Assembly: GCA_028408915.1 (NCBI GenBank)
Contig: JAOOLS010000003.1
Coordinates: 1-42,592 of the forward strand
DNA length: 42,592 nucleotides
Reading direction: 5' to 3'
DNA from: Prochlorococcus sp. AH-716-J09
Lineage (GTDB): Bacteria; Cyanobacteriota; Cyanobacteriia; PCC-6307; Cyanobiaceae
The notes beneath the pieces are model-generated. The model did no database searches, was not told the DNA's origin, and saw nothing but the letters and a program-made list of their open reading frames with translations. Made by a program: the position numbers and the translations under genes. Positions within the stretch are counted from its first letter, which is position 1; each line of letters starts with the position of its first letter. Positions 8,930 through 33,674 of the stretch are shown here, piece after piece.

Positions 8930-8949
8930 GCCCCTCTAGTAGCCCCTCC
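8930..8949. repeat. Candidate arm-site pair DR1 (left end of module 1): GCCCCTCTAGTA GCCCCTCC; extra copy at 8991-9004
   Basis: 12-bp period direct pair 54 bp after the tRNA; matches pair at 22180. Confidence 0.75.
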
Positions 8950-8999
8950 TGAGCTATAGCTTGCTATTACTTGCACCTATTGGTGCTCCTTTTGCCCCT

Positions 9000-9128
9000 C
9001 TAGTCATATACTTTATCCTGGTCTAATATCTCTCTCTTATATCCCTCAGCAAGCTCATCATTATATCTGCACTTTTCAATTATTTTTACTATCTCGGAGA
9101 TAGCTATAGTTTTTCGATCTTGCATCAT
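9000..9128 (-). CDS. Small hypothetical protein (42 aa)
   Basis: MMQDRKTIAISEIVKIIEKCRYNDELAEGYKREILDQDKVYD*, read directly. Confidence 0.4.
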   Translation of the reverse strand: MMQDRKTIAISEIVKIIEKCRYNDELAEGYKREILDQDKVYD

Positions 9129-9141
9129 TTAATAGTTATTT

Positions 9142-9438
9142 TTAAGCAGCATCATATTCATCCCTATCTTCAAGCTCTCTCATAAATCTTTTATCTAATA
9201 AGTAATTGTCTATAAGCTCAGCTGCCATAACTATCTCAGCAGCATTTTGAGATAGTTCATGTGTATCTTTGTCTAATAAGTAATTGTCAATAAGCTCTAG
9301 ATTGTACTCGTTTTCTTTAATTGGTTTATCGCTGTCTAATAGCTTTCTTATTTGTGTAAATACAAGCTCTTGATCGTATCCACTTTCTCTAATTTCTTTC
9401 AACATTTCATCTGGAATTTCCATAATCGTCAACCCCAT
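9142..9438 (-). CDS. Hypothetical protein with internal duplication
   Basis: 98-aa ORF with ELIDNYLLDK occurring twice. Confidence 0.55.
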   Translation of the reverse strand: MGLTIMEIPDEMLKEIRESGYDQELVFTQIRKLLDSDKPIKENEYNLELIDNYLLDKDTHELSQNAAEIVMAAELIDNYLLDKRFMRELEDRDEYDAA

Positions 9439-9613
9439 AAAAACCTCTATATATATAGAAACGTATTTCGAATAAAAATCAAATATCTATCAGATCTGAA
9501 GATCCACCTTGTTCAAGACTTTCAACCACTTCTCTTGATAAAGAGCTTATTGCGATTTCTTTAAGAATGTAGCTGATACAAAAAATAAAGATTCAATATC
9601 TACAATTATTTAG

Positions 9614-9808
9614 TTATTTAATTTCTAACTTCTCCGCCTTCCTCAATATTTGATTCTTTAAAAAAACAAGCGCATCTAATTTTTCTTCTTTTTCTTCAAT
9701 ATTTACAAATTTCATTTCTGCAATTTCAATAATTGCTTTATTAACATTTTTAAGCTGTTTCTTAATAATTCTTTTTGGTTTTTTAATTGATTCCATTGGA
9801 ATTATCAT
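9614..9808 (-). CDS. Hypothetical small protein
   Basis: 64-aa ORF, Lys-rich helical. Confidence 0.4.
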   Translation of the reverse strand: MIIPMESIKKPKRIIKKQLKNVNKAIIEIAEMKFVNIEEKEEKLDALVFLKNQILRKAEKLEIK

Positions 9809-9864
9809 TTTCTTTATATTCTCTTTATTTTCTGAAAATGCAAGTCTCTCACTCGAAAAATCTT

Positions 9865-10188
9865 TTAATTATTTAATTTATAATTTGTTTTTATAGTTTT
9901 TATTATTGAATCTTGTGGTTCTTCACTTGGGAAACAATTAATAATTCTATATTTTCCGCCTTTCTTATCAGTCTCTACAACTGTAAATTCCACATACTTA
10001 CCTATTCCATCTATTAAATCCTTCACTTCTGTATTAATTATCTCTTCATTTTCATTTTCAATAATACGAGATTTCCCACCGCAACTAATTAATGCATTTT
10101 CTTTAGTAACAAAAAAATCTTTATCATTACTGCATGAGGACAGAAAAGATAAAGAAAATACAATTAAAAGAAGTTTTTTCATAGTCAA
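9865..10188 (-). CDS. Hypothetical lipoprotein
   Basis: MKKLLLIVFSLSFLSSCSN lipobox. Confidence 0.6.
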   Translation of the reverse strand: MTMKKLLLIVFSLSFLSSCSNDKDFFVTKENALISCGGKSRIIENENEEIINTEVKDLIDGIGKYVEFTVVETDKKGGKYRIINCFPSEEPQDSIIKTIKTNYKLNN

Positions 10189-10307
10189 AAGTTTTTATAC
10201 ATAATTAATTTATAAGGCAATTTTATTAAGTAGAAGTTAAACCATAATTCAATGTAAATTAATTATGAAATAATTAGATCAAATAATTTTGATTATATAA
10301 AATAAAA

Positions 10308-11051
10308 TTGTTGGAACTTTCAATGGCTATTAAAGATCATAAAAGTTTGCAAGACTCAAGAATTCTTCTTGTAGAGGATGATAAGAGTATTAGGCTTACA
10401 GTCAGTGAAACCTTGAGCAGCGAAGGTTTTAGAGTGTCAAGTTTCAAAGACGGTTTAAGTGCCTTAGATTTTATTAATAATGATATTAAAAAAGATGTTG
10501 ACCTAATAATTCTAGATTTAATGTTGCCAGGACTAAATGGATTAGAGTTATGTAGAAAAATAAGAAATGATGAAGACTACACACCCATACTAATTTTGAG
10601 TGCTAAAGATAATGAATCAGACAGGGTTCTTGGATTAGAGGTTGGTGCAGATGATTATTTAACAAAACCCTTTGGTTTAAATGAATTAATTGCTAGATCT
10701 AGAGCCTTAATAAGAAGATCTAAACGTAATAAAAAATATATAGAAAAATCAAAAACTGTTCTCGAGTTTAATCATATAAAAATGTTTTTGGAAGAATGTA
10801 GGGTAACTTCTTTTGATAGAGAAATAACATTATCTCCAAAAGAATTTAAATTATTAGAGTTATTTCTGAAAAATCCAAAAAGGGTTTGGTCAAGAGATTT
10901 AATACTTGAAAAAATTTGGGAAATTGACTTTATTGGTGATACTAAAACTGTAGATGTTCATGTTAGGTGGCTCAGAGAGAAATTAGAAGAAGATCCCTCA
11001 GCTCCAAAGTTTCTTAAAACTGTAAGAGGTTTTGGATATAAGTTTGGATGA
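10308..11051 (+). CDS. phoB: OmpR/PhoB-family response regulator
   Basis: REC domain (LVEDDKSIRLTV, DLIILDLMLPG, LSAKD, GADDYLTKPF) plus winged-helix DNA-binding domain; phoR, porin and pstS context. ATG at 10323 is an alternative start. Confidence 0.85.
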   Translation: MLELSMAIKDHKSLQDSRILLVEDDKSIRLTVSETLSSEGFRVSSFKDGLSALDFINNDIKKDVDLIILDLMLPGLNGLELCRKIRNDEDYTPILILSAKDNESDRVLGLEVGADDYLTKPFGLNELIARSRALIRRSKRNKKYIEKSKTVLEFNHIKMFLEECRVTSFDREITLSPKEFKLLELFLKNPKRVWSRDLILEKIWEIDFIGDTKTVDVHVRWLREKLEEDPSAPKFLKTVRGFGYKFG

Positions 11052-12208
11052 AAATGAAAACACTACAAGAAGTATTATTTTTTTTACATCAGAAGTGGAA
11101 AATAAAAGTCAAGCATTTTTCTCAATCAAAAGAAAAAAAATTTGAAGTTGATAAAAATAAGTATAAAAAAACTATTGATTTCCCATTTGATAAAATTAGA
11201 CCTCAAGAAGTGTTGTCTTGGTTAGATTATTCATCGCAAGGGTGGATAATCTTATCATCTGATCTAACAATAAAATTTATCAATCAGAAAGCTTTATCTC
11301 TTATTAGGGTTATCAAATATAAAGATGTAATTGGAAAAGCAATTAATGATATTAATGAGCTTGAAGTACTTAGTAATAAAATTCTATATTTAAGAAAAAA
11401 AGATTTCCCATTCAACCTTGATTTCACAATTGCGGGAGTACCCATTTCGGTAAATATTGTTAGAGGAAGGAAAAAGAATTATTTAATATTATTGGAAAGT
11501 AAATTATCAATTGAATCGATAAAAAAACGACAAAATCAATTAATTAATGATGTGTCTCATGAACTGAAAACTCCTCTTACATCACTTATCTTAATTGGGG
11601 AAAGACTTGAATCAGTAGTATCAAAAAAGGATAGGTATCTTGTTAAAAGACTTAAGAAAGAGTCAAAAAGATTAAGAAAAATGGCCGAAGAGACTTTAGA
11701 GCTTTCTAAGCTAGAAAGTAGCGAAGATTTTAATAAAAACAAAAAAATATCTATTTCAGATTTGATTATGGAATCTTGGCAAACACTAAAACCGCTTGCA
11801 GAAAAAAAGGATATAAAAATAAATTTATTTTCTCCAACAAAATATTATATATCTGGGGATATTGAAAATTTAAAAAGAGCATTTATAAATATTTTAGATA
11901 ACGCTATTCGTTATTCCCCAACAAAAGAGGGCATACAAATTGAAATTTTTAAGAGAGATAGCTCTGTTGTTATAAGAGTTAGAGATAAAGGTATTGGATT
12001 AGAAGAAAATGAATCAAATGACATTTTTTCTCGTTTTTATCGTGGGGATCCATCAAGGACTAAATTTAAGAAAAGTGGAAGTGGTTTAGGTCTTTCAATT
12101 ACAAAAAAAATAATTAATAACAATAAAGGTTTTATAAAGGCATTTAATCATAAAGATGGTGGAGCGATTATTGAAACTATCTTTCCGTGTCTTAATACAG
12201 ATTTATAG
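11048..12208 (+). CDS. phoR: Sensor histidine kinase
   Basis: NDVSHELKTPLTSL H-box, N/G boxes (NILDNAIRYSP, RVRDKGIGLEE, GSGLGLSI); overlaps phoB. Confidence 0.85.
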   Translation: MKMKTLQEVLFFLHQKWKIKVKHFSQSKEKKFEVDKNKYKKTIDFPFDKIRPQEVLSWLDYSSQGWIILSSDLTIKFINQKALSLIRVIKYKDVIGKAINDINELEVLSNKILYLRKKDFPFNLDFTIAGVPISVNIVRGRKKNYLILLESKLSIESIKKRQNQLINDVSHELKTPLTSLILIGERLESVVSKKDRYLVKRLKKESKRLRKMAEETLELSKLESSEDFNKNKKISISDLIMESWQTLKPLAEKKDIKINLFSPTKYYISGDIENLKRAFINILDNAIRYSPTKEGIQIEIFKRDSSVVIRVRDKGIGLEENESNDIFSRFYRGDPSRTKFKKSGSGLGLSITKKIINNNKGFIKAFNHKDGGAIIETIFPCLNTDL

Positions 12209-12215
12209 GGAAAAT

Positions 12216-12542
12216 TTAAAAAATATTAGGACATGATTTTTCTGCAATAAATTTTTTTAAATTCAAAACCCCTTCTCTTGTAAAAAGAATGCTTCCTTCT
12301 TTGGAGTCATCTGCCCAATAAGAATCTCTTTTGCCAATAGCTAACCAAAGCCTATCAGGTAATGTTGGCATGTACATACTCTCGAAAGCAGATGTTCCAA
12401 TGTCATTTTCTTCTTTCATATCTTTGCATGCTTCTATCATTAGTTTGGGTCGATTTAAATAATGCCTGACACCCTGCCAATAATATTTTGTTTCAGCTTT
12501 AACTGGGGCGATGAATAAAATAATAAATATTAGGTATTTCAT
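12216..12542 (-). CDS. Hypothetical secreted protein
   Basis: Signal peptide-like N-terminus, 108 aa. Confidence 0.5.
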   Translation of the reverse strand: MKYLIFIILFIAPVKAETKYYWQGVRHYLNRPKLMIEACKDMKEENDIGTSAFESMYMPTLPDRLWLAIGKRDSYWADDSKEGSILFTREGVLNLKKFIAEKSCPNIF

Positions 12543-12580
12543 GATTTAACTTTTTTTAATTATAAGAACTGCAAAAAAAA

Positions 12581-12602
12581 GCCACCTTATATAAAAGGTG
12601 AC
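12581..12602 (-). terminator. Intrinsic terminator
   Basis: GCCACCTT-atataa-AAGGTGAC flanked by A8 (T-run on minus strand). Confidence 0.75.
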
Positions 12603-12620
12603 TTTTATTAGTAGTTTTAA

Positions 12621-14903
12621 CTAGATTTTTCCAATATTTAGGAAAAGAGTTTCACCAGTTGATTTCTTTCCAGTCCCGTCGTTGTCAGTTGAAATCCATG
12701 CTTGCCCCTCGCTTGTTATTGCTAAGCCTTCAACCTTTTCAAGGATAAAACCACCCGTAGATTGCATTACTGGTTTTAGATCAGTAACTAACTCTTTTTC
12801 AACTAAAGGATAAAGTCTGGGAGGAATATTAGTCTGAAGACCTTCGAAAATAACATCATCTAAATCTATTTTATATATAGCTTTCAATTTCGCTTTCTTT
12901 CCATAGAAACTATCTCTTTCGATTACATAAAGTGCCCCGTCATGGTAAGTCAATTCTGAAATGCCAACGCCACCTTTTTTGATCCTATCTAATTGATAAT
13001 TTACGGCCCCCCACTGTTTGGTTTTTAAATTATAGGAAAGGATCTTAGTAGTATTGAAAGTATCATCACCCCAAGGCTTCTGTTGAGCAATATAAAGAAT
13101 ATCCCCATTCCTTGTTATGCCTTCAAAACCAGGATTTTTAGCATAATTAAGATATGAAAGTGGTGGAGTTATCTTCTCTAAAATTTCACCATCTGAGCTT
13201 ACATGGTAGATTGCAGGAGGATGTTCATCTAGCTTTTTCTTGATTCCTTCAGTAGAAATGTAGAATCCACCATTACCATCAGTAGTAATACCCTCTTGAT
13301 CCATAAATAATGCAGTCTTACCATCTAGCTTTATATCTATAGCTCTTTCTAATAGTGCTGGGGAAGATGAAGGATCAATAACGTAAATTCTTGGCTGAGT
13401 TTTAAAAGTCCCATCATTTACAGCATAAATTTTACCGTCATCACCAGCCACCATTCCACTTATCGCACCCCAAGATACAAATTCAAGGCCATTTTCATTT
13501 GTTAAATGTGGGTATGAAGCAGGAGCATCTTGTAGTTGATAAATAGTCACATGAGAAGATAAACCAGGTTCTTTTTTGTTGTAGTCTTTTTCATTTGCTG
13601 AGGCAATTAATCCCCTCTCTGGAATTGCGACAAATCCCTCTGGTCCAATGCCTGATGGAAGTAATTGAGTAAGCAAAGGTTGATTTAGTTCTGTGATATC
13701 GTAAACAGCTACTATCCCAGCTCGTTCAGCACCAACAAATAAATAGGGCGTTCCATTAATTTTTGAATATGTAACTGACTCAGGTTCTACTCCCTTTTTA
13801 CCTGCTCTCCCATCTTGGAAATGACCTATTTGTGCAATTGCTCTTTCTAGTCTATTTGCATCTTCATAAACTACTGTTCCATCTTTTTTAAAAATAGTCC
13901 AGGATCTTGAACCACCTCTTTTTGCCTGACTTGGATCAATATGCTTGTAATCGCCTTCATTTGCTGTTGCAAAATGGTCATTATCAATCCAAGTAAGACC
14001 ATCGGGTTCTCTTCTTACATTCTTTAGTTTGCTTTTAAATTTATGTGCTCCATCTTTCTTTGTATCCATTCCTGCCATTTGTTTTACAACTCCTGCCGAG
14101 AAATGTGATATTACATTTCCATCTTTATCAATTACTGCAAGATGGTTGTTTTCTTGAAGAGAGACAACTGTTTCACCAAGATCATTAATAGCAACGAATT
14201 CTGGTTCGGGATCAAAAGGAGCTATTTCGGATAAGCCTGTTAAATCTACTTTTTTAATTGAGTTACATTGTATTTTTCCTCTTTTGTTTAACTTCACAAG
14301 AGAAACATAACCTGGAGGATTAATTTGAATGCCATTGTCATCAATTTGAGGGATAAATCCATTTTTATATTCTTCATCCCTCTCATTCTCTATAGCGACA
14401 GCTAGAAATGTTCCGTCTGGTGAAACAAAAACGCTATCAGGCTGCCCACCTAAATCACATTCTTTTACTGCTTTTCTTGTTTCTAAATTGTATTGAACTA
14501 AAGCTCCTGAAGGATTTGTATAACTTTCAGATGTATTCGAACCTATATAAGCATTGTTTCCAAGTGCTGCAATTCCAGTGGGTTCTGCTTCCAGTTCAAC
14601 AACTCCCAATGCTTTAGGTTTTGCAGGGTCTGAGATATCAACTAAACCTACTACTCCTAGATCGCTATCTGTATACATCAAAGTCTTACCATCTTCTGAT
14701 GCAGTAACAACTTCTGAAGAAGTTTTGGTTGTAGATTTTGATCCCTCTGGTAAATTATCACTTACATTGAAAGAAGAAATTCTGTTGAAGTTTTTTTCAT
14801 TTGCCCAATATTTTGTATTCCAATTTGCAAATCCGCCACTTGTAGAGGAGGCGACGATTGCAAGTAATGCTGAAAAACTTGCAGCAGCTAGGGTTTTTTT
14901 CAT
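12621..14903 (-). CDS. Secreted beta-propeller protein, phytase/esterase-like (choice-of-anchor-type plus PF13449-like)
   Basis: Signal peptide; EPDGLTWIDNDHFATANEGDY, GPEGFVAIPERGLIASANEKDY, FMDQEGITTDGNGGFYISTEG, KVEGLAITSEGQAWISTDNDG motifs. Confidence 0.75.
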   Translation of the reverse strand: MKKTLAAASFSALLAIVASSTSGGFANWNTKYWANEKNFNRISSFNVSDNLPEGSKSTTKTSSEVVTASEDGKTLMYTDSDLGVVGLVDISDPAKPKALGVVELEAEPTGIAALGNNAYIGSNTSESYTNPSGALVQYNLETRKAVKECDLGGQPDSVFVSPDGTFLAVAIENERDEEYKNGFIPQIDDNGIQINPPGYVSLVKLNKRGKIQCNSIKKVDLTGLSEIAPFDPEPEFVAINDLGETVVSLQENNHLAVIDKDGNVISHFSAGVVKQMAGMDTKKDGAHKFKSKLKNVRREPDGLTWIDNDHFATANEGDYKHIDPSQAKRGGSRSWTIFKKDGTVVYEDANRLERAIAQIGHFQDGRAGKKGVEPESVTYSKINGTPYLFVGAERAGIVAVYDITELNQPLLTQLLPSGIGPEGFVAIPERGLIASANEKDYNKKEPGLSSHVTIYQLQDAPASYPHLTNENGLEFVSWGAISGMVAGDDGKIYAVNDGTFKTQPRIYVIDPSSSPALLERAIDIKLDGKTALFMDQEGITTDGNGGFYISTEGIKKKLDEHPPAIYHVSSDGEILEKITPPLSYLNYAKNPGFEGITRNGDILYIAQQKPWGDDTFNTTKILSYNLKTKQWGAVNYQLDRIKKGGVGISELTYHDGALYVIERDSFYGKKAKLKAIYKIDLDDVIFEGLQTNIPPRLYPLVEKELVTDLKPVMQSTGGFILEKVEGLAITSEGQAWISTDNDGTGKKSTGETLFLNIGKI

Positions 14904-15008
14904 TTAGTGCGTAAGAAAATACATCCTCATGCTCCCTTTAAAAAGTTAAGAAAAAAAAATAAATTTATTAAGAACACTTTAAGTTTTTAATTTTTAGGTA
15001 AAAAAAAG

Positions 15009-15030
15009 ACCTCCACGTTGGAGGCCCTTT
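15009..15030 (-). terminator. Intrinsic terminator of porin gene
   Basis: CCTCCA-cgt-TGGAGG flanked by A-run (T-run on minus). Confidence 0.8.
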
Positions 15031-15047
15031 TAATTTGGTTATTCTGG

Positions 15048-16388
15048 TTAGAATTTAAATGTAGTTGTAAGTCCAAGACCTGAGGTATCTTCAGAACCAT
15101 CAACTTCAGCGATGTATCCAAATGCAGTCATTGAAACTCCATCATTTATTGGAAAACTGTATGAAGCTTCATAACCGTATACCTCATTAGCTCCATCATC
15201 TATTGCACCATTTGTACCAAAGCCAACTTCAAAAGTACCCTCACCAAGATCGGTTGCATATCCAACTTTGAATTGAGTAGTATCTTTGTTTGCACCTTGC
15301 TTGGTTCCAATTTCAACACCACCACTTAATGTTCCCATACCTTCTGGTGTGTAGTAAGCAGTAGCACCATAGTAAGTGGTATCACTATTAGCAGTTGCAC
15401 CTCCATCAGCTAATGCATAACCGAAAGTAAATCCATAAGTATCATTTGAATAACCTAAAGCGGCTCCGAGACCATCTGTACTTTCTTTTGTAGCAATACC
15501 ACTTGTTCCGCTATCACCTGAAAAGCCGAAACCAAACTCCCAGCCATCTGCAAATTCTGTTCCTAAGCTTACAGAAACATCTCCACCAGCATCAACTGCA
15601 TTTTTAGCTCCACAATCATCCATAGCATCGATAATTGTTCCTAATGCACAAGCATTTGGGAAATTCTTAGATAAGTCCATTGAATCTCCAACTGAAACAT
15701 CCCATCTTCCTAATGGAAATGTGTAGTTAACGTCTTCAATTGTAAGAGCATCTTGAGATTCACCAAAACCAGTTACGCCCTGCACAGTATTTGTACCAGC
15801 GGCATTACCGGCTGCAAACTCAATATTTAGTTTGTCATCACCAGTAAAACTAGTATTTAAATCCACTTCATAGTGATAAGCAAAAGTTGTTTGCTCTTCA
15901 TTATTATTGTCTCCAACAATAGCTGCACCGTTTGAGCCAGCACCAATCTGCATTTCTACTTTACCTGACATAGAAGTCGTTTCAGAGAAACTACCAGCTT
16001 CAATGCCATTAACACGAGCTTCAAGTCCATCCACTCTTCCTTTCATAATTGCTAATTCAGAACCAAGCTCATCACTTAGCCTTTCTATTGCGGCTCCGTT
16101 CATTAAGCCTTCACCACCGGCAATTAATCTGTTTAATTCAGCTGCAGCTTCAATACGATGAACTGGGCTACCATTGAATCTTGGACTTTTTGAAAGATCT
16201 TTTAATGAATCATAAGCCCAGTCGCCTGGAACCAATAGATCTGATTTGAAATCGCCTGTTGATATAACTTCAGGGGATTTGGTGAAAGGGCTGAATTCAG
16301 GTTGATTGATTTCAGCAGCATTTACTGCAAGACCTGATGCCATTGAAATGATCGCAGGAGCAGCAATTAATTTTTGAAAAAGTTTCAT
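15048..16388 (-). CDS. Porin with SLH-like N-terminal segment, phosphate-cluster porin
   Basis: VPGDWAYDSLKDLSKSPRFNGSPVHRIEAAAELNRLI (SLH-like), coiled linker, beta-barrel; start adjusted to MKLFQKLI. Confidence 0.8.
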   Translation of the reverse strand: MKLFQKLIAAPAIISMASGLAVNAAEINQPEFSPFTKSPEVISTGDFKSDLLVPGDWAYDSLKDLSKSPRFNGSPVHRIEAAAELNRLIAGGEGLMNGAAIERLSDELGSELAIMKGRVDGLEARVNGIEAGSFSETTSMSGKVEMQIGAGSNGAAIVGDNNNEEQTTFAYHYEVDLNTSFTGDDKLNIEFAAGNAAGTNTVQGVTGFGESQDALTIEDVNYTFPLGRWDVSVGDSMDLSKNFPNACALGTIIDAMDDCGAKNAVDAGGDVSVSLGTEFADGWEFGFGFSGDSGTSGIATKESTDGLGAALGYSNDTYGFTFGYALADGGATANSDTTYYGATAYYTPEGMGTLSGGVEIGTKQGANKDTTQFKVGYATDLGEGTFEVGFGTNGAIDDGANEVYGYEASYSFPINDGVSMTAFGYIAEVDGSEDTSGLGLTTTFKF

Positions 16389-16440
16389 AAACCTCAACAC
16401 GTAAAAATGGACACAAGTCCAATTTCATACCAACGAATTA

Positions 16441-16459
16441 AAGTTAAGAAAAGAGTAAG
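16441..16459 (-). promoter_or_regulatory. Candidate Pho box upstream of porin
   Basis: Minus strand CTTACTCT-ttt-CTTAACTT, 11-bp period, fits cyanobacterial PyTTAAPyPy repeats. Confidence 0.5.
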
Positions 16460-16623
16460 AAATTAGGTCAGAAGGAAATTTTAAAGAGAGTTTAAACTTT
16501 TCTTAAATCAAACAAAATAATTTCTTTATTTCTTGAATATTTTTTAAAGTAAGAATTTAAAATTGAATTTATTTATTTTCAATTATTTTCAAAACCAAAC
16601 GTAAATAAGTTAAATTGATATTT

Positions 16624-16642
16624 AGTTTAAGAAGGGGTTAAG
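16624..16642 (-). promoter_or_regulatory. Candidate Pho box upstream of pstS
   Basis: Minus strand CTTAACCC-ctt-CTTAAACT, 11-bp period. Confidence 0.55.
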
Positions 16643-16728
16643 AACTAATTAACCACAGGATAAAATTTTAATCAATGAGTATTTGTGTATAAATTCAGTG
16701 CTATAAATATGTAGTCTTTCATTTAATC

Positions 16729-17724
16729 ATGACATCCATGAACATAGCTAAGAAAGCTTTGGTTCTCACTTCTGCAGTAGCCATTGCTGCTGGTACAAGT
16801 GTTCCTGGCACAAGTGTTTCTGCTAAAACAAGATTAAGTGGTGCTGGAGCATCATTCCCTGCCAAAATTTACACTCGTTGGTTCAAAGATTTAGCCTCTT
16901 CAGGTGGTCCAAGAGTTAATTACCAAGCTGTTGGTTCAGGCTCTGGAAGAAAAGCTTTTATTGATCAGACAGTGAACTTTGGTGCTTCTGATGATCCTAT
17001 GAAGGATAAAGATATAGCAAAGGTAACAAGAGGATTAGTACAGATTCCTATGGTTGGAGGAACTATTGCTTTTGGTTATAACTATGATTGTGATTTGAAA
17101 CTTACTCAAGAGCAAGCAGTAAGAGTTGCTATGGGTATGGTTAAAAACTGGAAAGAATTAGGCTGTAAATCAGGCAAGTTAACTTGGGCACATCGTTCTG
17201 ACGGATCAGGCACAACCAAAGCTTTTACTAACTCTATGGAAGCTTTTTCAAAAACTTGGACACTAGGAACAGGTAAATCAGTTAAGTGGCCAGCAGGCGT
17301 TGGAGCAAAAGGTAATTCAGGTGTAGCAGGTGTTATACAAAATACACCTGGTGCAATTGGTTATGTTAACCAGTCTTATATAAAAGGTAATGTTAAAGCC
17401 GCTGCACTTCAGAATCTTTCAGGTGAGTTTCTAAAACCATCTGTAGAAGCAGGAGCTAAGGCTCTTAATGGTATTACTCTAGATGAAAATCTTGCTGGTA
17501 AAAATCCTAATCCAACTGCAAAAGGAGCATACCCTATAGCTTCATTAACATGGATACTTGCTTATGAAGAGGGTAATGGTAGAAACACTAAAGCTATCAA
17601 ACAAGCCTTTAATACATTATTAAGTGATAAGTATCAAGATAAAGCTCCATCACTTGGATTTGTCCCCTTAAAAGGAGATATTCTTGAGAAGTCAAGAGCT
17701 GCTGTAAAAAGAATCGGTAAATAA
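16729..17724 (+). CDS. pstS: Phosphate ABC transporter substrate-binding protein PstS
   Basis: LSGAGASFPAKIYTRWF...YQAVGSGSGRKAFIDQTVNFGASDDPM...RSDGSGTT. Confidence 0.95.
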   Translation: MTSMNIAKKALVLTSAVAIAAGTSVPGTSVSAKTRLSGAGASFPAKIYTRWFKDLASSGGPRVNYQAVGSGSGRKAFIDQTVNFGASDDPMKDKDIAKVTRGLVQIPMVGGTIAFGYNYDCDLKLTQEQAVRVAMGMVKNWKELGCKSGKLTWAHRSDGSGTTKAFTNSMEAFSKTWTLGTGKSVKWPAGVGAKGNSGVAGVIQNTPGAIGYVNQSYIKGNVKAAALQNLSGEFLKPSVEAGAKALNGITLDENLAGKNPNPTAKGAYPIASLTWILAYEEGNGRNTKAIKQAFNTLLSDKYQDKAPSLGFVPLKGDILEKSRAAVKRIGK

Positions 17725-17742
17725 ACCGTAAGACAATATTTA

Positions 17743-17769
17743 AAAGGAGGAATTTATTTCCTCCTTTTT
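17743..17769 (+). terminator. Intrinsic terminator of pstS
   Basis: AAAGGAGG-aatttattt-CCTCCTTT followed by T-run. Confidence 0.8.
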
Positions 17770-17770
17770 T

Positions 17771-18997
17771 TTATGCAAACAAATATTTTGACAAGCCTAA
17801 TATTAAAGAAAAAAGAATGAGTATGTATGTTGGAACTATTTTAAAAAAAGATAATAGTGTGGAGATTAAAACTATAAAAATAGAGCTAATTAAAAAGAAT
17901 TTTGATGAAAAACTATCTTCAATTAAATTAAATCCAGAGAAAATAACTGCTCCAGGAATTGTATTGATCACTCCTTCGATAAAGTAATTAATTGATTTAA
18001 TTCTGTTTTTTATAAAGCCTTTTCCAAAAACAAAAATCAATATAAAACTTGGTAAAAAAATTGCAAAAGTTGATATAAATGAATACTTTAAAGCTTCATT
18101 TATTCCTCCGATCGAAAACCCTGCTTTATATCCAATAAAACTTGTAATTAATAAGACAGGCCCAGGTGTTATTTGGCTAATCATTATTCCATCTATAAAT
18201 TCATTATTTGTTAACCATCCTTGCGAGATAACATAATCACTCATAAGAGGAATGATTACTAATCCACCTCCAAAAATAAAAAGTCCCGATTTAAAGAAGA
18301 AAAAAAACAGATTAAGGTAATCTACTAAAAACTTTGAGGTTATAGACTCTCTTAAAAAATTATAAAACTTTGATATATCTAAAAAGACCGAGCTAATCAA
18401 AAATGAGGTTGTTGAAAATATAGATAAAGGGACCAAGCTATAAAAAATATTTTTGAATTTCTTTAAAAATATATTTATCAATCCTGCAATACTAAGAATT
18501 GTTATGAGTGGAAATTGAATACTATTATATTTAGCAAATATAAGTAGAAATAATATTGAGCTGGAGAATAATATTCGATCAAACTTTAATCTTTTTTTTA
18601 ATAGAACTAATGAGAATGAAAAAATTATCCCTGCAATAATAGGCGGATTAAAATAAATTAAATCTGTTAAGAATTTTGATCCAGAACCAATTTGCCAAAA
18701 AAAACTAAGAGCTAATACTGAAATGAATCCTGGGATAATGAAACTTATACCTGATATCAATCCACCAAGATAACCATTGATTTTAAGACCTATATATATT
18801 GCCAATTGAGTAGATATTGGTCCTGGAAGTATTTGACATAATCCAATACCTTTTTCAAAAGATTGATTTGATATCAATTTTTTATTATTTATAAGTTCAT
18901 CTTCGAATAAGGAAATATGAGCATAGGGTCCTCCAAAACTTAAAATACCAATTTTTAGGAAAGTTTTTGCAAGTTCAATTAAGGATATTTTTGCCAT
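17771..18997 (-). CDS. chrA: Chromate transporter family protein (two-domain CHR)
   Basis: [24 protein letters not shown]...[16 protein letters not shown]; second half [20 protein letters not shown]...[16 protein letters not shown]. Confidence 0.9.
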
Positions 18998-19027
18998 TAA
19001 AATATTCTAATTCCTAAAAATTAGTCT

Positions 19028-20287
19028 TTATGGAGCTGATAAGCTTTGTTTGATTGATGGTAATTTAAGACTCGAAATCCAAGATAAGAATATTAAAAGT
19101 GATGAAAAATAAAGACAATATTGAAGACCAATACTCGGATTTCTCCCAATCATAAATAGTAAGCCAGATAGTAATGTTCCAACTAGTCTTCCAGCAGCAT
19201 TTGCCATGTAATAGAAGCCAACATTTAAACTGACTTTTTCATTATCAGAGTAGGCCAAAATCATATAAGAATGTGTAGAGGAATTCATTGCAAAAACAAA
19301 TCCAAAAATAGTAAGTCCTAAAATTATTGCTATTGATGGAGAACTTTCTCTCCATAATGCGACTCCTATCAAAGATGGTATTACCATTAATACGGCACTC
19401 CAAAATTGGATAGCTTTACGATCTGGACTTTCTTTCTGGCCCCATATCTTTCTAATTGCTGGAGCAGAAGCCTGAACAATTCCATAACCTATTACCCAGG
19501 CCCCAAGAAATAATCCTATTTCCATATAGTCCCAACCAAATGCCATATCTAGGAATACTGGAAGAGCTACAACAAACCAAACATCTCTTGCTCCAAAAAG
19601 AAAGAATCTTGCTGCAGAAAGAATATTTATGGCATTTGATTTTGAAAAAAGATCATTAAAAGCTGGTTTGGTTTTCATCTTGCCAATTTCTCCAGGTAAA
19701 ATTAATGTCAATAAAAAGGCTAAGCAGAGTCCAAAACCCATAATTCCTACAGCATTATTGAATCCAAATAACTTATATAAAAGTCCACCCAAGAAAAAAC
19801 CAACTCCCTTAAGAGCATTTTTAGATCCAGTTAAAATAGCAACCCATTTAAAAAGTTGTTTTTGGCCAGTATCATTGCCATCATTTGTCTCTGGGACTAC
19901 TGTCTTAACAGCACTTTTAGCACTCATTTTGTTTAAATCTTTTGCTATTCCACTAACTGCTTGAGCAACCATAACGTATGCGACACTAAAAATTACCGGC
20001 CAATCTTCCTTAACTGGAATAAGCATAAAAAGAGCGATGATTTGCAGGATAGTCCCAATCCATAAAGTAAGCCTTAATCCATATCTTGCTCCTATCCAGC
20101 CACCATAAAGATTAGTAATTATTCCAAAAAACTCATAAAAAAGGAAAAGTAAAGCAATTTGTAGAGTTGTGTAACCTAGCTCATGAAAGTGACCAACAAC
20201 TAATAATCTTAATGCGCCGTCAGTAAGCGTGAATGCCCAATAGTTTGCTGTTACAACACTATATTGTTGAATATTAGATAACTTCAT
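19028..20287 (-). CDS. arsJ: MFS transporter ArsJ (organoarsenical efflux)
   Basis: LSNIQQYSVVTANYWAFTLTDGALRLLVVGHFHELGYTTLQIALLFLFYEFFGIITNLYGGWIGARYGL; adjacent to GAPDH. Confidence 0.88.
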   Translation of the reverse strand: MKLSNIQQYSVVTANYWAFTLTDGALRLLVVGHFHELGYTTLQIALLFLFYEFFGIITNLYGGWIGARYGLRLTLWIGTILQIIALFMLIPVKEDWPVIFSVAYVMVAQAVSGIAKDLNKMSAKSAVKTVVPETNDGNDTGQKQLFKWVAILTGSKNALKGVGFFLGGLLYKLFGFNNAVGIMGFGLCLAFLLTLILPGEIGKMKTKPAFNDLFSKSNAINILSAARFFLFGARDVWFVVALPVFLDMAFGWDYMEIGLFLGAWVIGYGIVQASAPAIRKIWGQKESPDRKAIQFWSAVLMVIPSLIGVALWRESSPSIAIILGLTIFGFVFAMNSSTHSYMILAYSDNEKVSLNVGFYYMANAAGRLVGTLLSGLLFMIGRNPSIGLQYCLYFSSLLIFLSWISSLKLPSIKQSLSAP

Positions 20288-20298
20288 AAAGACATAAA

Positions 20299-21324
20299 TT
20301 AAATCTCTTTTTTGATTACATATTCAGTAAGATCTGCAAGTCTGCAGCTGTAACCCCACTCGTTGTCATACCAAGCGTATATCTTTAATAAATTTGAATT
20401 AACAACCATAGTTGATAAACTATCAACTATTGAACTTCTAGAGTCATTTACATAATCTGCAGAAACTAAAGGTCTTTCCTCGTAGCCAAGAATTCCTTTT
20501 AAATAAGTTTCTGAAGCTTCCTTTAGTGCCATATTCACTTGTTCAGTTGTCACTTCTTTATTTAATTCAAAAACTGCATCTGTTAAAGAACCATTAAGTA
20601 GAGGAACTCTTACTGCATGTCCATTTAATTTTCCTTTTAATTCTGGAAAGATCTCAGCGATAGCTTTAGCAGATCCAGTGGTAGTAGGTATTAAACTTTG
20701 CATACATCCTCTTGCTCTCCTCAGATCACTTTTATAAAAATCTACAGGAACTTGAGTGTTCGTTACATCGTGAATAGTTGTAATAGCACCGTGTTTAATA
20801 GAAAAATTTTCATTAATTACCTTTACTATCGGAGCTAAACAATTTGTAGTGCAGGATGCTGCAGTTACTAATTTATGTTTGGAAGGGTCATAAAGACTTT
20901 GATTTATACCGTAAACAATATTCAGTGATTCAGCTTCTGCAACAATTCCTTTGACTGGACAAGCTACTATTACTCTTTTCATCCCAAGAGTATCAAAATA
21001 GGGATTTAGTTTGTCTGGCTTTTTATTCTTTCCTGTACATTCCAAAATAATATCTACAGAAGATTTTTCCCAAGGAACATCAAGGTAATTTTTAAAAGAT
21101 GTGTAGGTTAATTTCTTTCCATCAATTATTATTTCTTCTTCTTTAACCTTTATATCTTTCACCCATCTACCATGGACTGAATCGAATTCGAGTAAATGCG
21201 CAGCAGCATTCGAATCTCCTGCTATCTCATTTATATGAGTTATTTCTATATCAGCTCTATCCCATAATGCTCTGAAAACTAATCTGCCAATTCTTCCAAA
21301 ACCATTAATTCCAATTTTCATCAC
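20299..21324 (-). CDS. gap: Glyceraldehyde-3-phosphate dehydrogenase, ArsJ-associated
   Basis: [27 protein letters not shown] active site, adjacent to arsJ and divergent from arsR-type regulator. Confidence 0.92.
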
Positions 21325-21347
21325 TGTTGAAATTTTCTATATTAATT

Positions 21348-21371
21348 ATACATCAAAATATTTTGATGTAT
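21348..21371. promoter_or_regulatory. Perfect 24-bp palindrome, candidate ArsR operator
   Basis: ATACATCAAAATATTTTGATGTAT between divergent gap/arsJ and ArsR-family gene. Confidence 0.75.
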
Positions 21372-21439
21372 CAAGTTGTTTTGATTAATGAAATCTTTTT
21401 TATTTAAGCTATATTTAGGAAAATTTAATTACTTTAAAA

Positions 21440-21760
21440 TTGTTAAAAAATATTAGCAAAGTAAAAAAAGAAGATATATCTAAGTTGATGGTTTCATTTT
21501 CTGATCCTTTTAGGCTAGAAATAATAGACCTAATGATGGAGGGAGAAGTTTGTGTTTGCGATATTATGAAATTAACTAAGTTATCTCAATCCAGAATTTC
21601 ATATCACATAAAAATTTTGAAGGAAGCTGGTCTTATCTCAGACAGACAAGAAGGTAGATGGGTCTACTACAGCCTAAATAAAGAATCTCTCTTTTTGATC
21701 AAGGAATGGATAACTTCTTTGACAGATTATTCTTCAAATAAAAAACGTTGCTGTGAATAA
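21440..21760 (+). CDS. ArsR/SmtB-family transcriptional regulator
   Basis: LMVSFSDPFRLEIIDLMMEGEVCVCDIMKLTKLSQSRISYHIKILKEAGLISDRQEGRWVYYSL. Confidence 0.92.
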   Translation: MLKNISKVKKEDISKLMVSFSDPFRLEIIDLMMEGEVCVCDIMKLTKLSQSRISYHIKILKEAGLISDRQEGRWVYYSLNKESLFLIKEWITSLTDYSSNKKRCCE

Positions 21761-21778
21761 ATTATATTTTAGATTTTA

Positions 21779-21985
21779 TTAATTAACTTCTGATTCCCTG
21801 TCATAAGTCATTCCTGATTGTTCCATCCACTCAGCTTTAGTTTTGCAATTTTGTTTGTGATTAAAGATGTGAAAACCTTCAATAATAATCATTATGGATA
21901 GAAGCAAAACAGGAATAAAATATACAGGTGAAGATATTACTTCTTTATATTTGATTTGAGAAATGAATTCCTTGTATTTAAACAT
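21779..21985 (-). CDS. Small membrane protein
   Basis: 68-aa ORF with one TM segment. Confidence 0.45.
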   Translation of the reverse strand: MFKYKEFISQIKYKEVISSPVYFIPVLLLSIMIIIEGFHIFNHKQNCKTKAEWMEQSGMTYDRESEVN

Positions 21986-22179
21986 CCCTACAAATTCTAA
22001 TTAATAAATAATATTCACCTATGGTTAAGTAAAGTTAAAGAAAAAATCTTTTTAAAAAATTTAGTTTAAGGATGTTTACTTAAAAAAAATAAAACCTTTC
22101 TAAATGAACCTTTTGATAATATTTTTTCTATGTTGGATATTTGCTCTGATTTTTTCCGCTAAAGTTGGAAGATTTGGTG

Positions 22180-22202
22180 GCCCCTCCAAGAGCCCCTCCT
22201 GA
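22180..22202. repeat. Candidate arm-site pair DR1' (right end of module 1): GCCCCTCCAAGA GCCCCTCCTGA
   Basis: Same repeat word and 12-bp period as 8930-8949. Confidence 0.75.
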
Positions 22203-22324
22203 CTAATATCATTTAATATCATGCAATAGAAGATTGCAATACGCTATCTCAAATTGGTTACTACAACTACTATTTATTCAAGCTATAACTTAAGTCTCAA
22301 GAATATCTCAAAAATACTTCCCAA

Positions 22325-22369
22325 TGCTTTGGGAGCACTAGGTCGCAGGTTCGAATCCTGTCGCCCCGA
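22325..22369 (+). pseudogene. tRNA-Pro 3'-half fragment (att scar)
   Basis: tgctttgggagcactaggtcgcaggttcgaatcctgtcgccccga, identical to 8832-8876. Confidence 0.97.
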
Positions 22370-22420
22370 TCAGTTATTGCAGTAGTTCTCGAATATTTGT
22401 TAGCAATCTTAAATGAGAAA

Positions 22421-22442
22421 GGAGCGCTAGAAGGAGCGCTAG
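22421..22442. repeat. Candidate arm-site pair DR2 (left end of module 2): GGAGCGCTAGAA GGAGCGCTAG
   Basis: 12-bp period; matches 24153-24172. Confidence 0.75.
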
Positions 22443-24078: not shown

Positions 24079-24152
24079 ATTTTAGTGTATGGTCGAGATT
24101 GAAAAATATCATTTTTACTACCTAGTTAATATTAGGCACTAGGTCGTTGAGG

Positions 24153-24172
24153 GGAGCGCTAGGGGGAGCGCT
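24153..24172. repeat. Candidate arm-site pair DR2' (right end of module 2): GGAGCGCTAGGG GGAGCGCT
   Basis: Matches DR2 at 22421. Confidence 0.75.
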
Positions 24173-24301
24173 AAGTTCTATAAACATCTTGTATGATCTT
24201 CGAAGATTTAGCAATAAGCTGTCTCAAACTCGTTCCACTCTCTACAATTAGTTAAGACTATAACTAAAGTCTCAAGGTTTTCTTAAAAATAACGCCCAGT
24301 A

Positions 24302-24344
24302 CTTTGGGAGCAATAGGTCGCAGGTTCGAATCCTGTCGCCCCGA
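24302..24344 (+). pseudogene. tRNA-Pro 3'-half fragment (att scar)
   Basis: ctttgggagcaataggtcgcaggttcgaatcctgtcgccccga, one mismatch to tRNA-Pro. Confidence 0.95.
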
Positions 24345-24420: not shown

Positions 24421-24441
24421 GCCAACAAATAGTCAACAAAT
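24421..24441. repeat. Candidate arm-site pair DR3 (left end of module 3): GCCAACAAATA GTCAACAAAT
   Basis: 11-bp period; matches 26593-26613. Confidence 0.75.
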
Positions 24442-26592: not shown

Positions 26593-26613
26593 GCCAACAA
26601 ATCGCCAACAAAT
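26593..26613. repeat. Candidate arm-site pair DR3' (right end of module 3): GCCAACAAATC GCCAACAAAT
   Basis: Matches DR3. Confidence 0.8.
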
Positions 26614-26702: not shown

Positions 26703-26747
26703 TGCTTTGGGAGCACTAGGTCGCAGGTTCGAATCCTGTCGCCCCGA
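26703..26747 (+). pseudogene. tRNA-Pro 3'-half fragment (att scar)
   Basis: Identical 45 nt to 8832-8876. Confidence 0.97.
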
Positions 26748-26799: not shown

Positions 26800-26822
26800 T
26801 TCCCTCAAAATTCCCTCAAATT
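26800..26822. repeat. Candidate arm-site pair DR4 (left end of module 4): TTCCCTCAAAA TTCCCTCAAA
   Basis: 11-bp period, 53 bp after the tRNA fragment. Confidence 0.7.
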
Positions 26823-28170: not shown

Positions 28171-28215
28171 TGCTGTGGGAGCACTAAGTCGCAGGTTCGA
28201 ATCCTGTCCCACCGA
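28171..28215 (+). pseudogene. Divergent tRNA 3'-half fragment (att scar)
   Basis: tgctgtgggagcactaagtcgcaggttcgaatcctgtcccaccga; altered anticodon loop and acceptor 3' strand. Confidence 0.9.
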
Positions 28216-28267: not shown

Positions 28268-28289
28268 GCACGCAAATGGCACGCAAATC
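28268..28289. repeat. Candidate arm-site pair DR5 (left end of module 5): GCACGCAAATG GCACGCAAATC
   Basis: Same 53-bp offset as other junctions; matches 30512-30534. Confidence 0.78.
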
Positions 28290-28381: not shown

Positions 28382-29521
28382 GTGAAAATACCTAAAAGAA
28401 TTTCATTCTTAGTTATTACGATTAGCTCTACTTTGTCGCTTCCTGCTGATGAATTGAAATTTAACAATATTAAATACGATCAATTCAAGGAAGAACAGAG
28501 CATATATGAGCCTAATGACAAATTAGATGAATACATTATTAAGGGAGTAACGTATTCAACCAAATTTGTTCCTTTAATGAATGATGGTGCGGAAAGCAGC
28601 GAATATACCAACATCATGAATAATGATTTTAAAAAATTATTAGTTGACGCAGGATTTGATTTTGCAAATTCAACAGCAAATAGTGAGATCCAAAAAATAC
28701 CATTTTTTGCTCAAACATCAGTAAATATATCAGGCGGAACTGAATCAGATACAAGTTTCTCAGTTAATAGCCTTATGAAACTTGGGGAACTAGCAAAAGA
28801 TAAAGAAGGTGATTTAAAAACCCTGGCATTTTCTCAGGCAAGATTTGCTACAGCCACAAATGCAGATGGTTCCACTATTAACCTTGGTTTTGGGATTAGA
28901 AATCGTCCTAATGATGTTTCTATGGTTGGAGCTAACGCATTCTGGGATTACAGAATGACTGATTATAGTGATGCCCATAGCAGACTTGGATTAGGTGGAG
29001 AATATTTATGGAAAGATTTTGAATTTAGAAACAACTTCTATATGTCTATTACTGATGAAAAAGATGTAACTATAAATGGCACGTCATATAAAGAAAGAGT
29101 CGTTCCTGGTTGGGATGTGGAACTAGGATACAGGCTTCCAAACAATCCAGAACTGGCATTCTTTGTAAGAGGATTTAATTGGGATTACAAACATACCCAA
29201 GACAATTCTGGCTTAGAAGGATCGGTACATTGGCAAGCTACACCACATATTGGTTTTGAAGCTTGGGTCTCTAATGAAATATCAGCAACTTCAACAACTG
29301 TTAATACTTCATTACTTGGAACAGATGAGACTTTCTTTGGATTAAGAATGAATATCACAGTCAATCCAGTCAAATTTGAAAAATCAAATTACAAGCAAAA
29401 TATGATTACTCAAATGACTCAACCAGTCAAAAGAGTAAATGATGTTTTACTTGAAAGAGCCGCTATTAATTCTAGTGGTGCAGCAACTTTTACCGTAAGA
29501 GTTAGTGCTCAGGGTACTTAA
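28382..29521 (+). CDS. Inverse-autotransporter (intimin/invasin-type) beta-domain protein, no passenger; copy B
   Basis: Close paralog of 24537-25652 over most of its length; GTG start. Confidence 0.8.
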   Translation: MKIPKRISFLVITISSTLSLPADELKFNNIKYDQFKEEQSIYEPNDKLDEYIIKGVTYSTKFVPLMNDGAESSEYTNIMNNDFKKLLVDAGFDFANSTANSEIQKIPFFAQTSVNISGGTESDTSFSVNSLMKLGELAKDKEGDLKTLAFSQARFATATNADGSTINLGFGIRNRPNDVSMVGANAFWDYRMTDYSDAHSRLGLGGEYLWKDFEFRNNFYMSITDEKDVTINGTSYKERVVPGWDVELGYRLPNNPELAFFVRGFNWDYKHTQDNSGLEGSVHWQATPHIGFEAWVSNEISATSTTVNTSLLGTDETFFGLRMNITVNPVKFEKSNYKQNMITQMTQPVKRVNDVLLERAAINSSGAATFTVRVSAQGT

Positions 29522-30511: not shown

Positions 30512-30534
30512 GACACGCAAATGGCAAGTAAATC
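30512..30534. repeat. Candidate arm-site pair DR5' (right end of module 5): ACACGCAAATG GCAAGTAAATC
   Basis: First unit identical to DR5 over ACGCAAATGGCA; second unit diverged. Confidence 0.65.
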
Positions 30535-30625
30535 AAACCAAATTAGTCCTAATTAGGCTACACATATATCCTTTAAATTTTTGAAATCGCTATAAGTCTC
30601 AAATATAGCCTTATTCTTGCGGTTT

Positions 30626-30668
30626 CTTTGGGAGCACTAGGTCGCAGGTTCGAATCCTGTCGCCCCGA
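30626..30668 (+). pseudogene. tRNA-Pro 3'-half fragment (att scar)
   Basis: ctttgggagcactaggtcgcaggttcgaatcctgtcgccccga. Confidence 0.97.
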
Positions 30669-30720
30669 TCAATTACAGCAGTGAGTCTCAGCTAATAATA
30701 TATTTAACCTAAAAAGTAGA

Positions 30721-30740
30721 GTGCCCAAAAAGTGCCCAAG
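30721..30740. repeat. Candidate arm-site pair DR6 (left end of module 6): GTGCCCAAAAA GTGCCCAAG
   Basis: 11-bp period, 53-bp offset. Confidence 0.7.
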
Positions 30741-31593: not shown

Positions 31594-31743
31594 ATGAAGG
31601 AATTAGAAGAAAATACTATCGAACAAATAAGAACTCTTCTCAATTATTTAGAGCATACAAATCTTTTAAAAAACAAGGATATTCTTAGATGCTTAGATGT
31701 AATAGCAAGAGAGTATGGCGGAGAAGTAGTTGACAAAAATTAA
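31594..31743 (+). CDS. Small hypothetical protein (49 aa)
   Basis: MKELEENTIEQIRTLLNYLEHTNLLKNKDILRCLDVIAREYGGEVVDKN*. Confidence 0.45.
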   Translation: MKELEENTIEQIRTLLNYLEHTNLLKNKDILRCLDVIAREYGGEVVDKN

Positions 31744-31929
31744 ATGGCAAATCCAGATCAAAAAACAATATTGCTAGAACAAGCTTATGACGAACTAAAG
31801 GCAATTTGCAACAAGTTCCAAGACCAATCCGGAGCTACAGATATGGAAGTAAAAACTTTACTTCGAGAACTTGCGAGGGTTTATGAAAAAGATATGGATG
31901 ACAACTATGACATAGATTGGGAAGTTTAG
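31744..31929 (+). CDS. Small hypothetical protein (61 aa)
   Basis: MANPDQKTILLEQAYDELKAICNKFQDQSGATDMEVKTLLRELARVYEKDMDDNYDIDWEV; directly follows previous stop. Confidence 0.55.
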   Translation: MANPDQKTILLEQAYDELKAICNKFQDQSGATDMEVKTLLRELARVYEKDMDDNYDIDWEV

Positions 31930-32093
31930 TTAAGTTTAAATAAGTTTATTTAATATTCTTTTGCTATAAATTAATTGAGGCCAAACCTCATCAGCACACT
32001 CTTGGTTTGCTGCAAGACATAAATTGATTCTATATAGTTGCGAGTCGATTTAATAACCCTTTCAGTAGGTGGAATTTCTGGAAGGGTTTCTTG

Positions 32094-32249
32094 TTACTGA
32101 TATTTATTTAGTAAATGGTTATAAATTACCAACAATACTATTACCCCAGCTATTCCATAAATTGCATGGAATGGATCGTGATGATTCTGCCAAAGCTCCT
32201 TTAAAAAGCCCTTCAATACTTCATATCCAATGCCCCATGAGAATAACAC
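32094..32249 (-). CDS. Small membrane protein, weakly similar to the 37-aa family
   Basis: ...SWGIGYEVLKGFLKELWQNHHDPFHAIYGIAGVIVLLVIYNHLLNKYQ*; GTG start assumed. Confidence 0.4.
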   Translation of the reverse strand: MLFSWGIGYEVLKGFLKELWQNHHDPFHAIYGIAGVIVLLVIYNHLLNKYQ

Positions 32250-32323
32250 CCATAAGATTTTTCTCTAATTAATTTGCATAATTTCTTACAACTGGTAATT
32301 TTAGTGGGCTCCGATAAATTCAA

Positions 32324-32548
32324 ATGCAAGATCAAAAAATTAAAAAGATAGCAACTATAGCAGTAAACATAACTAAGGTGCTGGTAATAATTTATCTAGG
32401 CTTCGTAGAGGTATTTAAAATTGCCAAATTACTTCGAGAGCAGTTAGATGCTGAATTTGATATTTCTCGAAAATGGGCCTCACAAAATTATTCAATTCTA
32501 AAAAAACGACTAGCGGAAAGAAAAGTAGCGGGAGTTCTAGAAAATTAG
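32324..32548 (+). CDS. Hypothetical small membrane protein
   Basis: 74-aa ORF with TM segment. Confidence 0.45.
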   Translation: MQDQKIKKIATIAVNITKVLVIIYLGFVEVFKIAKLLREQLDAEFDISRKWASQNYSILKKRLAERKVAGVLEN

Positions 32549-32560
32549 TAAGCGTTTTAT

Positions 32561-32824
32561 TTACGCAACAAGTTTGATCGAATATACGGTATCCTTACAA
32601 TTATTTTTTTTATCCCATTCCTTTGCGAAAGGAGATTCCATCTCTGCACCTAATTTTTCTAAGTCGGTACAGTTCATTAATAAATGAGATTTGTGTTCAT
32701 TCACTTTTACAAACTCATAATCAGTTACAAACTCCTTACACATTTCTTCAAGAAATAATGTTGTTACATCATTTTTAAATTCGTCAAATGTACAGCTAAA
32801 AGTTGAAATTATGAGAGTGTTCAT
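32561..32824 (-). CDS. Hypothetical protein (87 aa)
   Basis: MNTLIISTFSCTFDEFKNDVTTLFLEEMCKEFVTDYEFVKVNEHKSHLLMNCTDLEKL. Confidence 0.55.
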   Translation of the reverse strand: MNTLIISTFSCTFDEFKNDVTTLFLEEMCKEFVTDYEFVKVNEHKSHLLMNCTDLEKLGAEMESPFAKEWDKKNNCKDTVYSIKLVA

Positions 32825-32848
32825 AAAAAAAGGAGCTAATTGCCCCTT

Positions 32849-32867
32849 ATTGTAGATCGACTGTCAA
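32849..32867 (-). promoter_or_regulatory. Promoter-like element TTGACAGTCGATCTACAAT (minus strand)
   Basis: 25 bp upstream of the ORF starting at 32824. Confidence 0.55.
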
Positions 32868-32874
32868 TCTCTAT

Positions 32875-33147
32875 CTATGAGTAGACTTTGGCAACTATTG
32901 GACCAGCTTCTTCATCAGTGAATACAGGCGTGGTTTCCCAATTGAGAAATTCACCCCACTCAGCGGCATGTTGATATATTGCCTTTGGATCATCAGTCTT
33001 TAAAACTATCCAACCCTCTAAAGAACCAGGTGCATGATATCTTCCAATCATCTCAACTCCAGGATAATCTCCCCCACCACCAAGAAATTTTTCTGCACCT
33101 TTTTGATGATATCCGGCCTTAAATGACCAATGCTGAACATAAAGCAT
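32875..33147 (-). CDS. DUF3303-like protein
   Basis: MLYVQHWSFKAGYHQKGAEKFLGGGGDYPGVEMIGRYHAPGSLEGWIVLKTDDPKAIYQHAAEW. Confidence 0.75.
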   Translation of the reverse strand: MLYVQHWSFKAGYHQKGAEKFLGGGGDYPGVEMIGRYHAPGSLEGWIVLKTDDPKAIYQHAAEWGEFLNWETTPVFTDEEAGPIVAKVYS

Positions 33148-33348
33148 TTTATTTTTAATTTTTATTGGCTTTCTATTACTAGCAAAAAAAATAATTACTG
33201 AAAATAAATAGTTTTAATTGCCCATTTTTGAAGATCCATTAGTGAAACCATTAATTGAGAGTGCAGGTCATATTTACGATTCAACTGTTATTCCAAGCAA
33301 CTTTTAATTGAAATTAATACTAAAATAAAATGAAATTAGCACCTTTTT

Positions 33349-33630
33349 ATGCTGTTTCTAATTTCTTATAAATTCACTGATGCAAACGCCCAAGACAAGG
33401 GATCCAAAATGTTAAAAGAATGGTATGACAAAGGAGGACCACAAAATAGACCAGAGGGTTATGACGTTAAATCTTGGATTTTCTTACCTCAACATGGCAA
33501 TGGTTACTCTGTTGTAGATGCGGATTCTTTAGAGACTATTTGGAAACAGTGGAGTCCTTGGAGAGAATTATTGGAATTTACTATTGAACCTTGTGCGGAT
33601 TTAGATCAAACAGTAGCTTCATATTGTTAA
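33349..33630 (+). CDS. DUF3303-like protein
   Basis: MLFLISYKFTDANAQDKGSKMLKEWYDKGGPQNRPEGYDVKSWIFLPQHGNGYSVVDADSLETIWKQWSPW. Confidence 0.7.
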   Translation: MLFLISYKFTDANAQDKGSKMLKEWYDKGGPQNRPEGYDVKSWIFLPQHGNGYSVVDADSLETIWKQWSPWRELLEFTIEPCADLDQTVASYC

Positions 33631-33656
33631 TGAAATTCTGTGCTCCTAAAAAAGTA

Positions 33657-33674
33657 GTCAAAAATTGGTCAAAT
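33657..33674. repeat. Candidate arm-site pair DR7 (right end of module 6): GTCAAAAATTG GTCAAAT
   Basis: 11-bp period; only partly matches DR6. Confidence 0.5.

Follow-up and report, generated by a model that had tools for sequence, protein, structure and literature searches.

The window, a 42,592-nucleotide stretch of a 60% complete Prochlorococcus genome, holds a tandem array of six modules at a tRNA-Pro gene, and in most of these modules a short, tandemly paired word near the left end recurs near the right end. We propose that the words are arm-type sites of heterobivalent tyrosine integrases and that the window is an array of integrase-less cassettes moved in trans, a reading to which we give a probability of about 0.88. 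Such attP arm-type sites are a feature of the heterobivalent tyrosine integrases of lambda, L5 and Tn916. Sequence comparison makes it very probable that the words are attP arm-type sites, and integrases provided in trans are the most likely agents of cassette movement; we infer both the physical binding of the words by integrase and that mobilisation takes place in trans.

A tandem array of modules at tRNA-Pro

The six modules are delimited by an intact tRNA-Pro(TGG) gene, five copies of its 3' half and a 16-bp rump (Table 1). The 3' half of the intact gene, starting at 8832, is itself the left-end core of module 1. No integrase was found in modules 1-6, a point on which the first-pass annotation is silent, and a dedicated tyrosine integrase profile (A1) detected none in the window's own incomplete (60%) genome. 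The cargo of module 1 includes a response regulator, a sensor kinase, a phytase-like protein and a phosphate-binding-like protein, and further a chromate transporter, an MFS protein, GAPDH and a member of the ArsR family. Modules 3 and 5 each contain an inverse-autotransporter beta-domain gene (24537-25652 and 28382-29521, respectively), and the Yfr13 small RNA lies within module 6 (31977-32074).

Table 1. Cores, modules and candidate arm pairs of the tRNA-Pro array in the window. Offsets are in bp from the core.
Feature	Position	Strand	Word and period	Offset	Source
Intact tRNA-Pro(TGG)	8803..8876	+			ARAGORN, Rfam
Module 1, 13.5 kb, integrase-less	8832..22324	+			
Module 1 left pair	8930..8949	+	GCCCCTC x2, period 12	+98	
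Module 1 right pair	22180..22199	+	GCCCCTC(C) x2, period 12	-145	
Core, tRNA-Pro 3' half, module 1/2 junction	22325..22369	+			
Module 2 left pair	22419..22442	+	AAGGAGCGCTAG x2, period 12	+94	
Module 2 right pair	24151..24173	+	GGGGAGCGCTA x2, period 12	-149	
Core, tRNA-Pro 3' half, module 2/3 junction	24300..24344	+			
Module 3 left pair	24421..24441	+	(GC)CAACAAAT / (GT)CAACAAAT, period 11	+121	
Module 3 right pair	26593..26613	+	GCCAACAAAT x2, period 11	-110	
Core, tRNA-Pro 3' half, module 3/4 junction	26703..26747	+			
Module 4 left pair	26800..26820	+	TTCCCTCAAA x2, period 11	+97	
Core, diverged tRNA-Pro 3' half, module 4/5 junction	28171..28215	+			
Module 5 left pair	28268..28287	+	CACGCAAAT x2, period 11	+97	also genome-wide search
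Module 5 right pair	start about 30512-30514, to 30533	+	CACGCAAAT / CAAGTAAAT	about -110 to -112	
Core, tRNA-Pro 3' half, module 5/6 junction	30624..30668	+			
Module 6 left pair	30720..30739	+	AGTGCCCAA x2, period 11	+96	
Right pair near rump core	33655..33674	+	TAGTCAAA / TGGTCAAA, period 11	about -110	
Rump core, 16 bp only	33763..33778	+	GTGCTTTGGGAGCACT		

The first-pass annotation had listed tandem pairs to the left and right of junctions, and all of its left pairs, as well as its right pairs, are present within about 2 bp of where it put them. Its claim that left and right words agree inside modules 1, 2, 3 and 5 was borne out, with the second copy of the right pair of module 5 being degenerate (CACGCAAATGGCAAGTAAAT). 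A right pair is absent from module 4, whose left word stands without a partner, and the ends of module 6 mismatch (AGTGCCCAA on the left, a GTCAAA type on the right).

Upstream of the intact tRNA-Pro gene there is another small module (8128-8832). It has a second copy of the tRNA 5' half at 8128-8183; TTAGCGAG is paired at 8248/8258 (+75) and stands alone at 8690 (-142). The half of the tRNA that this module seems to regenerate is the 5' half, not the 3' half.

Paired words stand at fixed distances and match between the two ends of a module

The 3'-half sequence of tRNA-Pro occurs in 220 of 266 Prochlorococcus genomes, in up to 16 copies per genome. Forty array regions were retrieved for flank analysis; 31 genomes contributed 159 left and 161 right flanks, which were searched for exact tandem pairs of at least 8 bp with a period of 10-13. 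This gave 114 left and 110 right pairs, compared with 3.0 and 3.1 in 50 shuffles (maxima 8 and 9). Searches of all 266 whole genomes with single patterns gave the same picture: GCCCCTC stood at the predicted offsets in 37 of 39 fetched matches, the two exceptions lying in stretches without a core, in one case right at the first base of the stretch, and CACGCAAA did so in 33/33. Chance pairing in AT-rich DNA is ruled out by the shuffles and these genome-wide searches.

The period of the pairs is 11-12, sometimes 10. Left pairs group near +75, +97 and +118 from the core and right pairs near -111, -123 and -149 to -151; the left pair of module 3 at +121, which had been set apart as an outlier, falls within this pattern of three left classes. 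Words at the two ends agreed in 108 of the 122 distinct modules with words at both ends and differed in 14, where 8.2 agreements were expected and the maximum in 10,000 re-pairings was 21. The same period was found at both ends in 117/122 modules, against 69.5 by re-pairing. Arm-type sites are recognised by the same short repeat standing on both sides of a core at fixed distances, and this is what the flanks contain. The first-pass annotation had read the pairs as attP arm sites of different integrases and had named shuffled controls and left/right co-variation in other genomes as checks; both outcomes argue for its reading.

Left spacers are of two kinds, containing either a GTCTCA box or a terminator-like hairpin. 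GTCTCA/TCTCAA boxes are enriched at set places in the core flanks (about +61 and -19/-28/-79) and are possible common sites of an accessory or directionality factor. Exclusion of like words between neighbours gave no clear signal in the arrays, with 2 of 74 adjacent pairs alike versus 4.5% between arrays.

Words are shared with, and vary with, tyrosine integrases

The A1 profile was used because the Pfam scores of these integrases are near the cut-off or lower, and it found relatives in 103 of the 266 genomes searched. In tRNA-Pro elements the integrases are mostly 395-462 aa long; their genes occupy the right end, begin 58-240 bp from the core there and are directed away from it. Importantly, integrase-bearing tRNA-Pro elements carry at both ends the same words as integrase-less cassettes. 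The word of module 2 (GGGGAGCGCTA) recurs in element L335, those of modules 3 (GCCAACAAAT) and 4 (TTCCCTCAAA) occur at both ends of elements L351 and L360, respectively, and a GCCCCTC pair as in module 1 is found at the right end of L448 beside a 435-aa integrase. No integrase with the words of modules 5 and 6 was found in the genomes searched.

The clades of the integrase tree largely match the word classes. In Mantel tests, word similarity correlated with the N-terminal (0.51), core-binding (0.54) and catalytic (0.35) regions, and the partial correlation with the N-terminal region given the catalytic region was 0.42 (p 2e-4). The association of word and N-terminal region anticipated by the first-pass annotation is thus present at the level of co-variation, with the core-binding region correlating equally. 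A structure model predicts a beta-beta-beta-alpha unit at about residues 26-75 (pTM 0.46, moderate confidence), and the predicted structure shows a weak overall likeness to Tn1549 Int and Cre. One integrase clade (425 aa) has an extra repeat of period 10, TGCAGTCT, at -79. This was considered as the arm of the clade and rejected, since it occurs on the right side only; the two-sided word of the clade is TCCGTAGA / TCCGTGGA.

Phage contigs from IMG/VR contain a single core that is flanked on either side by one and the same word, with an integrase gene starting 70-116 bp away, the layout of an unsplit phage attP beside its integrase that marks arm-type sites. Phage genes were annotated in one of these contigs, L386, which encodes phage-type sigma factor, Erf, exonuclease and RusA-like proteins; no relatives of its integrase were found among sequenced phage records.

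Natural co-divergence of word and N-terminus was seen in two clear pairs of closely related integrases, both from metagenome contigs in which misassembly is possible. The L398 and L374 integrases are identical at 38/60 positions over residues 1-60, at 34/35 over residues 61-95 and to a high degree beyond; for L399 and L379 the successive values are 34/58, 19/35, and 93/95 and more. Divergence is therefore concentrated in the first 60 or 95 residues. In both pairs all word copies differ, at both arms, and most of the arm-to-core sequence is conserved.

L251, L252, L253 and L265 also contain, near tRNA-Pro cores, small tyrosine recombinases (191-212 aa) that match chiefly in the catalytic domain. 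A full-length integrase is present as well in L252, and in L168, which covers the same region as L251.

An integrase-less module has spread between genomes

No integrase was detected in 153 of 189 distinct modules (median 1.8 kb), and the 36 with an integrase had a median of 8.0 kb. Among the integrase-less modules that bear words, 80 of 139 share their word with an integrase-bearing element in the sample. One integrase-less module of 3.27 kb is 99.4-99.8% identical in three genomes (G002, G004 and G007) whose baseline identity over 4.2 kb around rpoB is 88.3-89.4%. It terminates exactly at the cores, and the neighbouring sequences are unrelated between the compared genomes. Near identity in divergent genomes with ends at the cores shows that integrase-less modules move. 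The cognate integrases that were found are encoded elsewhere, in other genomes and phage contigs, so that mobilisation in trans would have to be invoked, and since most cassettes keep both arms, each was most likely moved in trans by an integrase that reads its word.

Cassettes and integrase elements with the same word share only short ends, for instance 82 bp on the left and 50 bp on the right between module 3 and L351. Conversely, similar cargo can stand between different words. Phosphate-related genes of module 1 (8832-22324) recur in other genomes at 90-93% identity, in inverted orientation and with other arm words around them, and the inverse-autotransporter genes of modules 3 and 5, whose words differ, are 87% identical in DNA over about 1 kb.

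Alternative explanations

The pairs might be sites of an element-linked excisionase or regulator rather than of the integrase, and the TGCAGTCT repeat, confined to the right side at -79, is what a directionality factor would give. However, the main words stand on both sides of the core, the TGCAGTCT clade has a two-sided second word of the TCCGTAGA type, in both natural pairs a difference in the words accompanies one in the integrase N-terminus, and integrase-less cassettes have the words too, which makes this explanation very improbable. Hardly credible is the idea that a conserved host recombinase moves all modules by the core alone, with the words incidental. A 389-aa tyrosine recombinase is indeed encoded in most of the near-complete genomes searched, but no word pair lies near the copies of its gene that were examined, and such an enzyme would leave the diversity of words, their left/right matching and their association with integrases unexplained.

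With regard to movement, integrase-less modules could be dead remnants whose arms have merely not yet decayed. Some remnants surely exist as well, and cores and arms of the window are partly eroded (modules 4 and 6), but as a general account this is improbable given the matching arms kept in 108/122 modules and the recent, precise spread of the 3.27-kb module between divergent genomes. Modules might instead move only in cis, accreted with an adjacent integrase-bearing element, as in the CIME model. Tandem accretion is documented for ICE/CIME pairs (PMC5704250) and proposed for Dehalococcoides ssrA islands (PMC3146451). Against this, the transferred 3.27-kb module has unrelated neighbours in the compared genomes and the word of most modules is unlike that of the neighbour, so we consider movement in cis alone unlikely.

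We therefore favour arm-type sites and mobilisation in trans. The paired words would be the P and P' arm-type binding sites of integrases whose site of recombination is the tRNA-Pro anticodon loop; the N-terminal region of the integrase would read the word, and the rest of the protein would act on the shared core. For each cassette of the array, any phage or tycheposon-like integrase able to read its word would carry out insertion and excision in trans.

Relation to known systems and significance

As in a lambda-type attP, the words are short direct repeats that flank the core, are distinct from it and are split between attL and attR on integration. Unlike there, the tRNA-Pro array has dozens of word types on one shared core site, and words persist on elements without an integrase. 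In an integron cassette array or CALIN, attC hairpin sites are recognised by IntI; the repeated sites of the window are tRNA-Pro cores with arms. There is an even chance, in our judgement, that the tRNA-Pro locus is integron-like but served by many integrases, with private address words and cargo that can be re-framed with different words; a visiting phage or tycheposon integrase with a matching N-terminus would then capture and release cassettes.

Prochlorococcus tycheposons are, in a second-hand account (PMC10872708), tRNA-linked cargo elements with tyrosine recombinases. The window modules are likewise tRNA-linked cargo elements, but mostly small and without a recombinase of their own, and no description of arm words was found in the sources consulted. 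CIMEs (PMC5704250) are integrase-less, bounded by attL and attR and in tandem with others; modules 1, 2, 3 and 5 similarly lack an integrase and keep both att ends. The tRNA-Pro modules differ in that arm words link them to separate integrases, and one of them, the 3.27-kb module, appears to have moved without its neighbours. Dehalococcoides ssrA islands also stack in tandem at one RNA gene, about half of them without an integration module, but use a serine recombinase, and the accessible part of that report mentions no arm-site words (PMC3146451). For cyanophage P-SS2, a putative attP in tRNA-Met and several partial tRNA copies in a host island are described; this resembles the present case, but the tRNA is not tRNA-Pro, and the sections available contain no arm analysis (PMC2784084).

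These results suggest how a very abundant marine phototroph, in which recognisable prophages are rare, can acquire and shed nutrient and surface genes cassette by cassette. The 10-bp word makes it possible to match each orphan cassette with a helper, and the many natural pairs of integrase and arm word on one shared core form a data set for how arm-binding domains choose DNA. Finally, integrase-bearing elements near tRNA-Ser and tRNA-Arg genes (L240, L243, L255 and L257) show one tandem word that occurs twice, several kilobases apart, and the paired-word arrangement may therefore be general.
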